This document shows, piece by piece, positions 20,234 to 26,306 of a stretch of 36,914 bases of DNA (position 1 is its first letter; every line of letters begins with the position of its first letter). Below the pieces are notes generated by a model that saw nothing but the letters and a program-made list of their open reading frames with translations, did no database searches and was not told the origin of the DNA. The translations under genes were made by a program, and so were the position numbers. This DNA comes from Geobacter sp. (lineage in GTDB: Bacteria > Desulfobacterota > Desulfuromonadia > Geobacterales > Pseudopelobacteraceae). The stretch is from NCBI GenBank assembly GCA_025360785.1, contig JANYBN010000227.1, positions 1-36,914 of the forward strand. The letters run 5' to 3'.

Positions 20234-20262
20234 TTCTGAACTTTTTTGTTATTTACAACTCT

Positions 20263-20277
20263 GCACAGTATGTACCA
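20263..20277 (-). promoter_or_regulatory. Sigma-54 (-24/-12) promoter of nifV
   Basis: On the minus strand TGGTACATACTGTGC has the invariant GG and GC at the required spacing (consensus TGGCACG, four bases, TTGC). Transcription should start near 20251 and give a leader of about 78 bases that includes the hexaloop and terminator. The rest of the 358-base gap to the divergent gene at 20532 shows no other gene. Confidence 0.65.
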
Positions 20278-22661: not shown

Positions 22662-23474
22662 CTATCCGCAACTCCCCATCGTGGCCAGTCCGTAAAGCAG
22701 CTCAGGCCGATAGTCAGGCTTTCTTCCCGCATACATCAATGCATTGCTGCCGGCAACGGCCATATTCCTACGCCTGAAAAACCGGGAGGCCGACCGGTTC
22801 GATGCCGGGACATCCGCCAGAATCTTTATCCCACTTGGAACCGATGTTATTGCGGCATCAAAAAGCAACTCCGCGCTGCCGGAGTCAACAGCCGAAAAAG
22901 GGCCGCAATGTACAGAGGCATCGTACGGCTGCAGCACAATAAAGCCTGATTCATTCTTCCAAACAGTGCCGCGACTCGCCGTCACTTCAAGCAGCGCCAT
23001 ACGGCGGTCTCCCCAGGCATGCGCATCCAGATCATGTACAGCCCTTGCCAACTCCTTATTACAATTATTCCCATGCCGCCCGCGCCCGGTTCCGACCCAG
23101 CGGTTGATCGTGTCTATTTGGATAAAACCATATTTTTCATAAAGGTGGACACCTGATTTCGATGCGGTCAGCCAGATGGTTTGTGCACCAGCCAGCCGGA
23201 GAGCTCCCACAGCCTTCTTAAACAACCCATTGCCAATTCCGCCGCCTCGAAACTGTTCCGCAACGATAAGGTTGCCGATCCAGCCGCTCCGTTCATGGAG
23301 CAGTGAGGTCACAAACCCGGCCGCAGCCCCGGAATCATCACGGGCGATAAAACATCCTTGCGGGAAGTTTGACAGAAGAAAATCAAACTCCCACTCACCT
23401 GCCACCCACCCTTCAGCAGCTGCCAGTCTTAAAAAAGACGCTATGTCATCCGTGCCGAACGGTTCAATTATCAT
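22662..23474 (-). CDS. GNAT acetyltransferase coupled to nifB
   Basis: The 270-residue protein has an N-terminal GNAT fold with the acetyl-CoA site in IGNLIVAEQFRGGGIGNGLFKKAV (about 72-95) and HLYEKYGFIQIDTINRWVG at its end. A second C-terminal domain (about 165-265) resembles the Acetyltransf_18 half of two-domain GNATs such as YitH. The start at 23474 is fixed by an ATGA overlap with the nifB stop, which implies translational coupling. The substrate is unknown; its place behind nifB suggests a role in cofactor assembly or modification of a Nif protein, but this rests only on context. Confidence 0.85.
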   Translation of the reverse strand: MIIEPFGTDDIASFLRLAAAEGWVAGEWEFDFLLSNFPQGCFIARDDSGAAAGFVTSLLHERSGWIGNLIVAEQFRGGGIGNGLFKKAVGALRLAGAQTIWLTASKSGVHLYEKYGFIQIDTINRWVGTGRGRHGNNCNKELARAVHDLDAHAWGDRRMALLEVTASRGTVWKNESGFIVLQPYDASVHCGPFSAVDSGSAELLFDAAITSVPSGIKILADVPASNRSASRFFRRRNMAVAGSNALMYAGRKPDYRPELLYGLATMGSCG

Positions 23475-24340
23475 GGTGTCGGGCAGGCCGCCTCGGCAAT
23501 GGTCATATTCAGATCCTGTCCGATGAGGCCGATCGCATCGGCGCGGCACTGTTTGCAGTGGGCAAACTGGCCGATGATCCCTTCATTGGCTTTTTTGGTT
23601 GCAGCCAGATACTCTTCGCTGGGGGGCGTAATATACGCAAGTTCGGCCTGGGGAATAATCGGCATAATGTTCATGACAAAGGCGCCCAGTTCTTTGACCC
23701 GCGCCGCAATCAGCGGTATCTGGCTGTCATTGATGCCGGGCGTCAGCACGGTGTTGACCTTGATCGTCAGCCCAAGTTCACCGGCACGTTTGAGGCCCTC
23801 AAACTGGTTGGCAATCAAAATTTTTGCGCCATCGATACCGCTATAACGTTTGCCGTGATAGAAGACATTGCTGTAAATTTTGGCGCCGACTTCCGGATCA
23901 ATGGCATTGATGGTGACCGTCAGACTGTGCAACCCCATCTCAAACAGACGATCAATCGATTCCGGCAACAGCAGGCCGTTGGTACTCAGACAGAGCATCA
24001 GTTGCGGAAATTCTTTCTTTACCATGGCAAAGGTCTCAAACGTCTCTTCGTTGGCCAGTGGATCTCCCGGTCCCGCGATGCCGATAACCTTGATGATCGG
24101 GCCGACAATCGGACTGGCCATGACTTCTCGTACCTTTTCTATCGCTTCCTGCGGTGTCAGAATACGGCTGGTCACGCCTGGGCGCGATTCGTTGGCGCAG
24201 TCGTGTTTGCGGGAGCAGTAGCCGCACTTGATGTTACATTGCGGCGCCACCGCCAGGTGCATTCGCCCGTTTTTATGATGATTGCCGCCGAAGCAGGGAT
24301 GCCCCTGGATTTTGTTTTTCATCTCACATGCAGTTGCCAT
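23471..24340 (-). CDS. nifB: NifB, radical SAM FeMo-cofactor precursor synthase (short form)
   Basis: The 289-residue enzyme fuses two [4Fe-4S] clusters and inserts carbide to make NifB-co. It shows the N-terminal HPCFGG, the radical SAM cluster motif CNIKCGYCSRKHDC, the family-specific NESRPGV, GIAGPGDPLAN and LSTNGLLLPESIDRL, and a C-terminal CKQCRADAIG that supplies ligands for a second cluster. The C-terminal NifX-like domain of many bacterial NifB proteins is absent. The start at 24340 follows AAAGGAGCG; the frame is open further upstream, but that part comes from the leader hairpins. It is preceded by a sigma-54 promoter and an attenuator and followed by the overlapping GNAT gene. Confidence 0.94.
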   Translation of the reverse strand: MATACEMKNKIQGHPCFGGNHHKNGRMHLAVAPQCNIKCGYCSRKHDCANESRPGVTSRILTPQEAIEKVREVMASPIVGPIIKVIGIAGPGDPLANEETFETFAMVKKEFPQLMLCLSTNGLLLPESIDRLFEMGLHSLTVTINAIDPEVGAKIYSNVFYHGKRYSGIDGAKILIANQFEGLKRAGELGLTIKVNTVLTPGINDSQIPLIAARVKELGAFVMNIMPIIPQAELAYITPPSEEYLAATKKANEGIIGQFAHCKQCRADAIGLIGQDLNMTIAEAACPTP

Positions 24341-24359
24341 ATTAGCGCTCCTTTTAAAC

Positions 24360-24388
24360 AAAAAAACCCGCAGGAGATCTCCCACGGG
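24360..24388 (-). terminator. Leader terminator of nifB
   Basis: On the minus strand CCCGTGGGAG pairs with CTCCTGCGGG (two G-T pairs) at 24367-24388 and is followed by seven T residues (24360-24366), 20 bases before the nifB start codon. The position between promoter and gene makes it an attenuator, as in the nifV leader. Its upstream arm overlaps the hexaloop hairpin at 24384-24400. Confidence 0.85.
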
Positions 24389-24400
24389 CGTCGTTGCCAT
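24384..24400 (-). promoter_or_regulatory. ANTAR-type hexaloop hairpin in the nifB leader
   Basis: On the minus strand ATGGC, loop AACGAC, GCC-C-GT forms a stem with one bulged C. The six-base loop has A1 and G4, and the core GGCAA(C/G)GACGCC is shared with the nifV leader. Its 3-prime arm is part of the terminator stem, so the two structures exclude each other. With the predicted start near 24403 the hairpin lies at the very 5-prime end of the message. Confidence 0.7.
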
Positions 24401-24414
24401 CGACATGGTTATAG

Positions 24415-24429
24415 GCATAATGCGTGCCA
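24415..24429 (-). promoter_or_regulatory. Sigma-54 (-24/-12) promoter of nifB
   Basis: On the minus strand TGGCACGCATTATGC carries a perfect -24 box (TGGCACG) and an ATGC -12 box with the invariant GG and GC correctly spaced. Sixteen bases further upstream is the TGACCGAGATACC element (plus-strand reading, 24446-24458), which recurs before the ANTAR regulator gene. Confidence 0.8.
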
Positions 24430-24445
24430 GTTTGGATTAACAGCG

Positions 24446-24458
24446 TGACCGAGATACC
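24446..24458 (-). promoter_or_regulatory. Conserved promoter-proximal element (nifB copy)
   Basis: The minus strand reads GGTATCTCGGTCA and, nearer the promoter, TCCAA. The same elements occur before the ANTAR gene (26319-26332) as GGTTATCTCGGTCA and TCCAA. It sits closer to the -24 box than a usual sigma-54 activator site. An enhancer-binding protein such as GnfM is a candidate, but no such gene is in the window. Confidence 0.55.
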
Positions 24459-24470
24459 ATTTTTAAATCA

Positions 24471-24607
24471 TTCACCGCAGAGGACGCAAAGTAACGCAGA
24501 GTAAAATCAGAAGGTTAAAACATAAAAGTGCTTCGCTATATTGATGTCGAATTAGTATCAATAAAGCCATCTTCTTCCTCTGCGAACCTTTGCGTCCTCT
24601 GCGGTAA
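24471..24607. repeat. MITE-like element with long terminal inverted repeats
   Basis: The arms at 24473-24500 and 24578-24605 are near-perfect complements (ACCGCAGAGGACGCAAAG in one, CTTTGCGTCCTCTGCGGT in the other, then divergent ends with CGCAGAG). They enclose about 77 AT-rich bases without a reading frame of interest. The element lies between the nifB promoter and the draG-like gene. It belongs to a very widespread CGCAGAGG-type repeat and shows no transposase. Confidence 0.75.
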
Positions 24608-24666
24608 AACAGACTTTCAAACGAATTCCGAATCAGAATATGCACGTTATTTAAGCAGATCGATGT

Positions 24667-24682
24667 CGGATTACTCTTTGCA
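24667..24682 (+). promoter_or_regulatory. Weak sigma-54-like promoter before the draG-like gene
   Basis: CGGATTACTCTTTGCA has GG and GC at the right spacing and an excellent TTTGCA -12 box but a poor -24 box. It lies about 45 bases before the start codon. It would put the gene in the nitrogen regulon, but it may be chance. Confidence 0.3.
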
Positions 24683-24726
24683 AGGATCCACTCTCAGTTG
24701 CTCTCAGTTATATAGTGGAGGATTTC

Positions 24727-25632
24727 ATGTTCAACCAGTATGACCTCGAAGAAATCCGCGACCGCGCCCGTGCCGCCTTCGTCGGCATGGCGATCGGCGA
24801 TGCCCTGGGCGCCACTGTCGAGTTCATGACCGCATCAGAAATTGCCGCAAAATACGGCACCTTTCGGGACATTATCGGTGGAGGATGGTTAAGACTGAAA
24901 CCGGGGCAGGTAACCGATGACACCGAAATGGCGCTCTGCATCGCCCGGGCTATCGTAAAGAATCAAACCTGGTCGCTGTTGGCGGTTGCCGACAATTTTG
25001 CCGCCTGGCTCAAATCCCGCCCGGTCGATTGCGGAGATACCTGCCGCAAGGGGATTCGTGCCTATCTGCTGAACGGACAGCTGGAATCACCGCCAAACGA
25101 ATGGGATGCCGGTAACGGCGCAGCCATGCGTATCTTGCCGGCTGTACTCTTTTCACTTCCCGATGACGAGCTGCTCAAAAAATATGTAATCGAGCAGGCG
25201 CACATTACCCACAACAACCCGGTTTCGGATGCTGCCTGCATCTGCCTGGGGCAGCTCCTGCACCTGGCGCTCTGCGGGGCCGGCAAAACCCGCCTGCGCC
25301 GCCAGGTTGACGGGTTGGTGACAAGATTCCCCACCTTTACTTTTGAGCCGTATCGCGGCCTGGCTACCGGCTATGTCGTAGATACCATGCAGACGGTGTT
25401 TCACTGGTTTTTTCGCGGGAAGAGTTTTAAGGAATGCCTGGTCGGAACGGTCAATCAGGGTGCCGATGCCGATACGACCGGAGCCATCTGCGGGATGCTC
25501 GCCGGGGCCTATTACGGGATGGATGCCATACCAAAACGGTGGCTGAAGAGGATGGATGGCAAGGTTATCGCCGAAATCGAGATCATGGCAGATCGTCTGA
25601 TAACGGCAAGCCCGGCGGGAAGAAGGATGTAG
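24727..25632 (+). CDS. ADP-ribosylglycohydrolase (DraG-like)
   Basis: This 301-residue all-helical hydrolase has the dinuclear-metal motifs of the family: DDTEMALC (about 63-70), AMRILPAVLF (about 122), THNNPVSDAACICLGQ (about 155) and the C-terminal GADADTTGAICGMLAGAYYG (about 242-261). DraG enzymes remove ADP-ribose from Arg101 of nitrogenase reductase and so reactivate it. The start at 24727 follows GGAGG with 5 bases; the GTG at 24715 is less likely. Neighbours are nifB (divergent) and the ANTAR regulator (convergent), which supports a nitrogenase role. No draT partner is in the window. The stop codon TAG lies in the end of a repeat. Confidence 0.88.
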   Translation: MFNQYDLEEIRDRARAAFVGMAIGDALGATVEFMTASEIAAKYGTFRDIIGGGWLRLKPGQVTDDTEMALCIARAIVKNQTWSLLAVADNFAAWLKSRPVDCGDTCRKGIRAYLLNGQLESPPNEWDAGNGAAMRILPAVLFSLPDDELLKKYVIEQAHITHNNPVSDAACICLGQLLHLALCGAGKTRLRRQVDGLVTRFPTFTFEPYRGLATGYVVDTMQTVFHWFFRGKSFKECLVGTVNQGADADTTGAICGMLAGAYYGMDAIPKRWLKRMDGKVIAEIEIMADRLITASPAGRRM

Positions 25633-25700
25633 GGGCGGCCCCGCGTGGCCGCCCACCCCGCTGGCCACCCAGAAGGGTAACCACTCGGGGTTACCCCTAC
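25629..25700. repeat. Repeat with GTAGGGG ends between two convergent genes
   Basis: The 72-base element begins GTAGGGG and ends CCCCTAC, with inner hairpins GGGCGGCC/GGCCGCCC (about 25633-25656) and GGGTAACC/GGTTACCC (about 25675-25696). The TAG within each end is the stop codon of the adjacent gene: draG-like on the plus strand (25630-25632) and the ANTAR regulator on the minus strand (25697-25699). The hairpins may also act as a bidirectional transcription block. Confidence 0.8.
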
Positions 25701-26263
25701 CCTTCCTTCAAAATACCGGCAGCGACCTGCAGCAGCGACTTGCGTTTGTCCATCGCCGTTTTCTGCATGATTCGATAGGCCTCAGCCTCTGACACGCGGT
25801 TCTTTTCCATAAGAACCCCTTTGGCTTTTTCAATGATTTTACGGTTCTCTATGAGTTCCCGCAGATCGTCGATTTTCTCTTTCAGCTCCTCCACCTCTTC
25901 AACATGCTGCAGCGCAATTTCTATCGCCGGCAACAGATCCTGCTGACGGAGCGGTTTGGTTAAAAAAGCGGCAATACCGCTTGCCGATGCCCGTTTTACA
26001 GTCGCGCTGTCACAGGCGCTTGTAAGCAGCATGATCGGAATTTTCAGCTTTTTTCTGATCTCTACTGCGGCGGTTATTCCGTCCATACCAGGCATGGCAA
26101 CATCCAATATCGCCATATCCGGAAAACTCGCCAACGCTAATTCCACGGCTTTTGCGCCGTTTCCACACTCCAGTATTTCATCGAAACCGAGATCAACCAG
26201 CATGCTCTTCAGGTTCATTCTAATAAGCGGCTCGTCATCACAAATCAGTATTGATTTTCCCAT
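25697..26263 (-). CDS. gnfR: ANTAR-domain response regulator, GnfR-like antiterminator
   Basis: The 188-residue regulator has an N-terminal receiver (SILICDDEPLIRMNL; phosphorylated Asp in MAILDVAMPGMDG; Lys in FLTKPLRQ), a coiled-coil linker (VEEVEELKEKIDDLRELIENR) and a C-terminal ANTAR domain (KIIEKAKGVLMEKNRVSEAEAYRIMQKTAMDKRKSL). ANTAR domains bind paired hexaloop RNA hairpins and block terminators. In Geobacter the protein GnfR is described as doing this for nif genes, and hexaloop/terminator leaders precede nifV and nifB here. The start at 26263 (MGKSILICDD) was chosen over upstream codons because AGGGGG lies before it. It has its own sigma-54 promoter. Assignment to the GnfR family is good; orthology is inferred from context. 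Confidence 0.85.
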   Translation of the reverse strand: MGKSILICDDEPLIRMNLKSMLVDLGFDEILECGNGAKAVELALASFPDMAILDVAMPGMDGITAAVEIRKKLKIPIMLLTSACDSATVKRASASGIAAFLTKPLRQQDLLPAIEIALQHVEEVEELKEKIDDLRELIENRKIIEKAKGVLMEKNRVSEAEAYRIMQKTAMDKRKSLLQVAAGILKEG

Positions 26264-26291
26264 GGTTGTTTCCCCCTGTACCATGGAATTA

Positions 26292-26306
26292 GCATGAGGC
26301 GTGCCA
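26292..26306 (-). promoter_or_regulatory. Sigma-54 (-24/-12) promoter of the ANTAR regulator
   Basis: On the minus strand TGGCACGCCTCATGC has a perfect -24 box and ATGC at -12, with GG and GC correctly spaced. It closely resembles the nifB promoter. It lies downstream of the terminator at 26347-26383, so the regulator gene is insulated from the sulfatase-like gene. Confidence 0.8.

Follow-up and report, generated by a model that had tools for sequence, protein, structure and literature searches.

Features of the nifB leader

The window, a stretch of 36,914 nucleotides, is one contig of a Geobacterales genome (assembly of 229 contigs, 3.9 Mb); the nif genes, leader elements and regulator gene considered here are listed in Table 1. 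The promoter of nifB exhibits the arrangement of nif-type sigma-54 promoters, i.e. GG at −24 and GC at −12 at a distance of ten bases, and is conserved in relatives. The hexaloop hairpin downstream of it has a stem of only 3 bp, whose GCC (24389-24387) is at the same time part of the 5' arm of the terminator; the two structures are therefore mutually exclusive. The initial annotation had placed the core GGC-AACGAC-GCC at this position, overlapping the terminator arm; its sequence and coordinates (24398-24387, minus strand) proved to be correct, as did the overlap, the GCC lying inside the stem 24389-24366. The matching nifV core, GGC-AAGGAC-GCC, was likewise located (20231-20220, stem of 5 bp). 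The transcription start, supposed to lie about 3 bases before the hairpin, is indeed close upstream, but its predicted distance is approximately 5 nt (2-6 nt with the usual spread).

A search of the window against Rfam at the gathering threshold yielded no matches. Between nifB and draG, a 34-nt inverted repeat (85%; 24471-24504/24575-24608) with a CTCTGCG/GCGTCCTCTGCGG-type sequence is present; CTCTGTGTCTCCGTG stretches resembling this repeat occur upstream of nifB in many relatives.

Table 1. Features of the nifB and nifV leaders and of the regulator gene (window coordinates).
Feature	Position	Strand	Basis
nifB, radical SAM FeMo-cofactor maturase	23471..24340, ATG 24340	minus	TIGR01290, E 1e-100
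Sigma-54 promoter of nifB, TGGCACGCATTATGCC (-24/-12)	24414..24429	minus	9/11 consensus positions; fixed spacing in relatives
Predicted transcription start of nifB	24403 (~ +/-2)	minus	standard sigma-54 spacing, 12 nt past C of -12 GC
ANTAR-type hexaloop hairpin GGC-AACGAC-GCC with A1 and G4, proposed antiterminator	24387..24398	minus	sequence, alignment, folding
Intrinsic terminator stem, 10 bp	24366..24389	minus	independent terminator scan, folding, covariation in relatives
Terminator T tract (T7)	24360..24366	minus	sequence and terminator scan
nifB ribosome-binding site AGGAG	24348..24352	minus	sequence reading
nifV sigma-54-like promoter, TGGTACATACTGTGCA	20262..20277	minus	sequence; promoter and core pattern
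nifV hexaloop ACGGC-AAGGAC-GCCGT, ~18 nt past predicted start, no P1	20218..20233	minus	sequence, folding
nifV leader terminator overlapping hexaloop	20192..20228	minus	folding, -25.6 kcal/mol, z -4.87
GnfR-like response regulator, REC + ANTAR	25697..26263, likely start ATG 26263	minus	profile search, alignment
Sigma-54 promoter of the ANTAR gene, TGGCACGCCTCATGCT	26291..26306	minus	sequence

Competition between hexaloop and terminator

The hexaloop is the predicted structure of the 5' 20-mer of the nifB leader (−3.6 kcal/mol), and the full-length leader adopts the terminator fold (−19.9 kcal/mol, z −2.59). Calculated folds of the growing chain retained the hexaloop stem, unchanged or in a variant form, until a length of 35 nt was reached; at 37 nt and above the terminator was formed. 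In the nifB leaders of relatives, six of the ten terminator pairs had changed on both sides (89.4% paired); the covariation score was reached by none of 500 shuffles and was better than that of every slid control. In part of this set, position 6 of the loop pairs within the terminator, and the two partners change jointly (C-G, U-A, A-U); this directly supports a competition of both structures for the same bases.

Conservation and chance occurrence of the hexaloop

Taken alone, the 12-mer core was not above chance in the genome (186 matches with at most one mismatch versus 180 for the reversed pattern), and most of its exact matches had no fitting context. If combined with a sigma-54 box 8-38 nt upstream, four places in the genome were obtained, including the leaders of nifB and nifV, versus none for the reversed pattern. 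A similar pattern applied to the sister family matched in 40 of 48 genomes; its reversed control gave four matches in total.

A NifB protein search that was blind to the leader yielded 55 loci, 52 of them with usable upstream sequence after outliers from other phyla had been dropped, and the hexaloop was present in 48 of these 52. The remaining loci (L045, L049, L050 and L056) hold nifB copies that are 69-72% identical, at least two of which are second copies in genomes also possessing the hexaloop element. In the 48 aligned leaders, A1, A2 and G4 of the loop were invariant and positions 3, 5 and 6 varied; the alignment of nif leaders likewise showed invariance at loop positions 1 and 4 (A and G). 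A1 and G4 are the determinants of ANTAR recognition (PMC3369931, PMC8934654); their invariance is not due to the terminator, in which both are unpaired. The distance from promoter to hexaloop amounted to 15-19 nt in most nifB leaders.

Search for a second hexaloop

The literature defines ANTAR targets by a pair of hexaloops (PMC3369931, PMC8164766), P1 and the terminator-overlapping P2. The search for a P1, i.e. an A1/G4 hexaloop on a stem of at least four pairs, covered each leader from 2 nt ahead of the predicted start up to P2, with dinucleotide shuffles as reference. In all 33 nifB leaders of the window's genus, the predicted start is followed at a distance of 4-14 nt by the hexaloop, so that there is no room for a second hairpin; P1 was accordingly found in 0/33, an outcome that depends on the stem and loop rules and refers to starts that are predicted throughout the lineage. 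P1 was also absent from the eight long-leader nifB loci of other genera of the window's family (0/8). The power of the test is shown by the positive control: In the nifB leaders of Geobacteraceae (family f4, including Geomonas limicola and G. silvestris), P1 was detected in 21 of 28 cases (shuffled mean 0.65, maximum 4) and, with other loops allowed, in 26 of 28; its stems differ among the genomes (aggtac/gtatct, agatac/gtatct, cgatgc/gcattg, cggtac/gtatcg) with the pairing kept.

Hexaloops were not in excess within 150 nt upstream of the promoters of 39 short leaders (A1/G4 type: 3 observed versus 6.97 shuffled); a more distal start would thus bring in no P1. The case that had been named as speaking against a single hairpin, a start further upstream with a second hexaloop in the message, is thereby made unlikely.

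The leaders of nifH in the genus contain promoter, hexaloop and terminator in 29 of 30 cases and offer 26-50 nt of room for P1. Nevertheless, P1 was no more frequent there than by chance (1/29, shuffled 0.43), the same applying to any 5-bp hairpin (4/29, shuffled 5.79), and RNAalifold on the nifH leader alignment revealed one hexaloop (P2) only. The nifV leaders of the genus lack P1 as well (0/9). The possibility of a non-canonical P1 in nifH, nifV and the long nifB leaders of the family was rejected as well, since 5-bp hairpins of any kind with a loop of 5-7 nt were not in excess over shuffles. The nifE and nifV leaders of Geobacteraceae that were collected by pattern are also single: P1 occurred in only 4 of 50 segments, one of them nifB, in a set that is a sample, since the P2 sequences are only partly covered by the pattern. 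The minimal single-hairpin version suggested by the initial annotation has hence passed all comparative tests, by spacing in 33/33 congeneric nifB leaders and by the missing P1 in nifH, where room is available, and in the shorter nifV leaders.

With regard to the published dual-hexaloop motif, the nifB leader possesses the hexanucleotide loop with A1 and G4 on a short stem (AACGAC) and the P2 overlap with the 5' arm of the terminator, and the genome encodes an ANTAR protein; the P1 on a short upstream linker is absent (0/33 in the genus, none enriched upstream). Lacking one defining feature on the evidence of its sequence, the leader does not belong among the dual-hexaloop members, although it would act like one.

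The ANTAR regulator

A PF03861 search of the genome revealed a single ANTAR protein (E 9.8e-20), encoded 1.4 kb from nifB; 129 of 141 genomes of the order contain such a protein, mostly in single copy. Both domains are above the Pfam cut-offs, PF00072 (86.5 bits) being followed by PF03861 (70 bits), and comparison with EutV (PDB 6wsh/6ww6) gave an E value of 8e-34. Residues R148, K155, E166, Y170 and M178 (numbered from 26284) correspond to R142, K149, E160, Y164 and M172 of EutV, which have been named as RNA contacts (PMC8934654). The listed open reading frame begins at 26284, upstream of the predicted sigma-54 transcription start (~26280), and ATG 26263, preceded by a GGGGGA stretch, is therefore the likelier start codon. 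The leader of this gene is short and without a terminator.

The aromatic residue that stacks on G4 (Y164 in EutV) is Tyr throughout the window's family (f1) and Phe in the regulators of families f3 and f4. As a marker of single- versus dual-loop leaders this residue had to be rejected: EutV has Tyr with dual loops, single-loop leaders also occur in f4 (G025, G027 and others), and the difference is one phylogenetic split. The nifB leaders of Geobacter argillaceus and of a close relative (L164 of G011, L155 of G012) have remained of the textbook dual-hexaloop type, and an ANTAR protein was not detectable in these two genomes even at E 10; element and protein are thus not perfectly matched.

Distribution of the short leader on the NifB tree

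On the NifB tree the short leader form needs five changes, at least four of which are forced by well-supported branches; it must consequently have arisen or moved more than once. Two Geobacteraceae genomes (G025, G027) possess a short single-loop leader, and their NifB proteins are far from the clade of the window. Among cultured relatives, the short leader is present in Pelotalea chapellei (L015/L131). Window-type nifB clusters with a single-loop leader were also found in metagenome-assembled genomes of other families (L013/L132 of G019, L042/L128 of G006), which may reflect transfer or a binning error or contamination.

Proposed mechanism and alternative explanations

Based on these findings, the nifB leader is probably an ANTAR-controlled transcription attenuator using one hexaloop. 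When nitrogen is limiting, transcription by sigma-54 RNA polymerase would start from the observed box, at a predicted position about 5 nt before the hairpin. By default, the weak hexaloop in the nascent RNA would refold to the terminator at about +37, as computed, and transcription would stop near +44. By analogy with other ANTAR families, a phosphorylated dimer of the GnfR-like protein is expected to bind the AACGAC loop emerging from the polymerase and to keep the GCC in the short hairpin, whereby the terminator would be blocked and nifB transcribed. In a P2-only leader, the loop would have to be captured directly, after it has emerged and before the terminator closes, an interval estimated at roughly a dozen transcribed nucleotides. 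Activator and antiterminator would form a feed-forward loop, as the regulator gene has a sigma-54 promoter of its own and no terminator. The single-loop design appears to be used also at nifV, likewise in the window, and at nifH in another part of the genome. For the order as a whole we moderately favor the view that the leaders of nifH, nifV and nifE, and of nifB in the window's family, are under single-hexaloop ANTAR antitermination with P2 only, P1 being essentially confined to nifB of Geobacteraceae.

Among the alternatives, a leaky switch deserves attention: The single loop would be bound, and the loss of P1 would have left weak antitermination or plain decay of the leader in this lineage. 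The presence of P1 in Geobacteraceae nifB and its absence here would agree with such a loss, as would the behavior of NasR, which binds a single P2 RNA (at ~12 uM) more weakly than the two-hairpin RNA, strong binding needing both hairpins (PMC7496416). However, decay would not be expected to leave a single-loop element with invariant loop positions throughout the genus and at three nif operons, and the NifB tree implies repeated origins of short leaders (at least four changes); this explanation is accordingly rated as unlikely.

Similarly improbable is a terminator attenuator that is read by a non-ANTAR factor (another RNA-binding protein, a small RNA or no regulator at all) with the hexaloop being incidental. 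The weakness of the short hexaloop stem, the chance-level frequency of the core 12-mer alone and the leaders retained in the two genomes without a detectable ANTAR protein would be compatible with it, but it does not account for A1 and G4, invariant though unpaired in the terminator; moreover, the only ANTAR protein of the genome is encoded beside nifB with its RNA-contact residues kept, and the related dual form is a textbook ANTAR target. A standard dual-hexaloop switch, with a different, more distal promoter and a P1 included in the message, is very unlikely: The start is a predicted one and the sequence alone leaves room for other promoters, but there is neither an excess of hexaloops upstream of the short leaders nor a sigma-70-like promoter on the minus strand within 24300-24760, the promoter-hexaloop distance stays within 15-19 nt in most nifB leaders, and a distant P1 would not serve, given the shortness of known P1-P2 linkers and the loss of EutV antitermination upon a 20-nt extension (PMC8934654).

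Relation to known antitermination systems

The attenuator proposed here, with its single loop, joins a known type of regulation. For Geobacter sulfurreducens, control of nif genes through antitermination by GnfK/GnfR has reportedly been described by Ueki and Lovley in 2010; to our knowledge, no RNA motif was defined in that study. Both systems share an ANTAR response regulator under a master sigma-54 cascade and nif promoter regions with terminators; the hexaloop and its single copy, in contrast, were read from the sequence of the present leaders. The nifEN transcript of G. sulfurreducens is RpoN-dependent, and its 5' end has been mapped to the RpoN promoter (PMC2725144).

The eutP-type leaders controlled by EutV in Enterococcus faecalis resemble the nifB leader in the REC-ANTAR regulator with conserved contact residues and in the A1/G4 hexaloop that overlaps the 5' arm of the terminator (PMC3369931, PMC8934654). 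They contain, however, two hexaloops separated by a short, fixed distance, and antitermination in vivo requires both (PMC3369931), whereas nifB has one, near the 5' end and behind a sigma-54 promoter. The NasR/nasF leader of Klebsiella is a further example of ANTAR antitermination in nitrogen metabolism and differs by the NIT sensor domain in place of REC and by the two hairpins for full binding (PMC7496416). The closest counterparts, the nifB leaders of Geobacteraceae (e.g. Geomonas), share the gene, sigma-54 promoter, P2 hexaloop and terminator and differ in a P1 (aggtac-AACGAY-gtatct type) approximately 9 nt before P2.

Dimers of EutV bind isolated hexaloops, and in its structure the dimer engages one loop at a time, P1 being thought to be a recruitment site (PMC8934654). 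This structural work reduced the binding unit to one loop and kept two for antitermination; single-loop sites were proposed to be possible where the time constraint of the polymerase is absent (PMC8934654). Single-loop antitermination leaders have not been described in the accessible literature. As published targets contain two hexaloops and single-loop sites have only been proposed, the single-loop antitermination leader, as judged from sequence, would be new, GnfR antitermination of Geobacter nif genes being already known. If the proposal is true, one loop directly behind a sigma-54 start suffices, and P1 would be dispensable, serving as an aid to recruitment and not as a defining element of the target. 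Dozens of natural leaders have one loop before the terminator, some of them with the loop at the 5' end; searches with the dual motif will have missed them. A ready-made comparison is offered by sister families, in which nifB naturally has two-loop leaders.

Deviating leaders of other nif and associated genes

The nifV leaders of the Geomonas group (L328-L337, L339, L341) have kept the sigma-54 box and a single hexaloop without a subsequent T tract; control may therefore be translational there rather than exerted by termination. The nifB leader L174 (G020) consists of two hexaloop-terminator units in tandem (GGCAACGAAGCC...T8 GGCAAGGGCGCC) with one loop each. In the window's genus, an A1/G4 hexaloop with an overlapping terminator also precedes a fixA/etfB-like gene (electron-transfer flavoprotein beta) at six loci (L172, L185, L209, L211, L212, L215; MLIVVCIKQVPDTTQVQ...); these hexaloops are mostly without a sigma-54 box and possibly represent an intercistronic member of the regulon.
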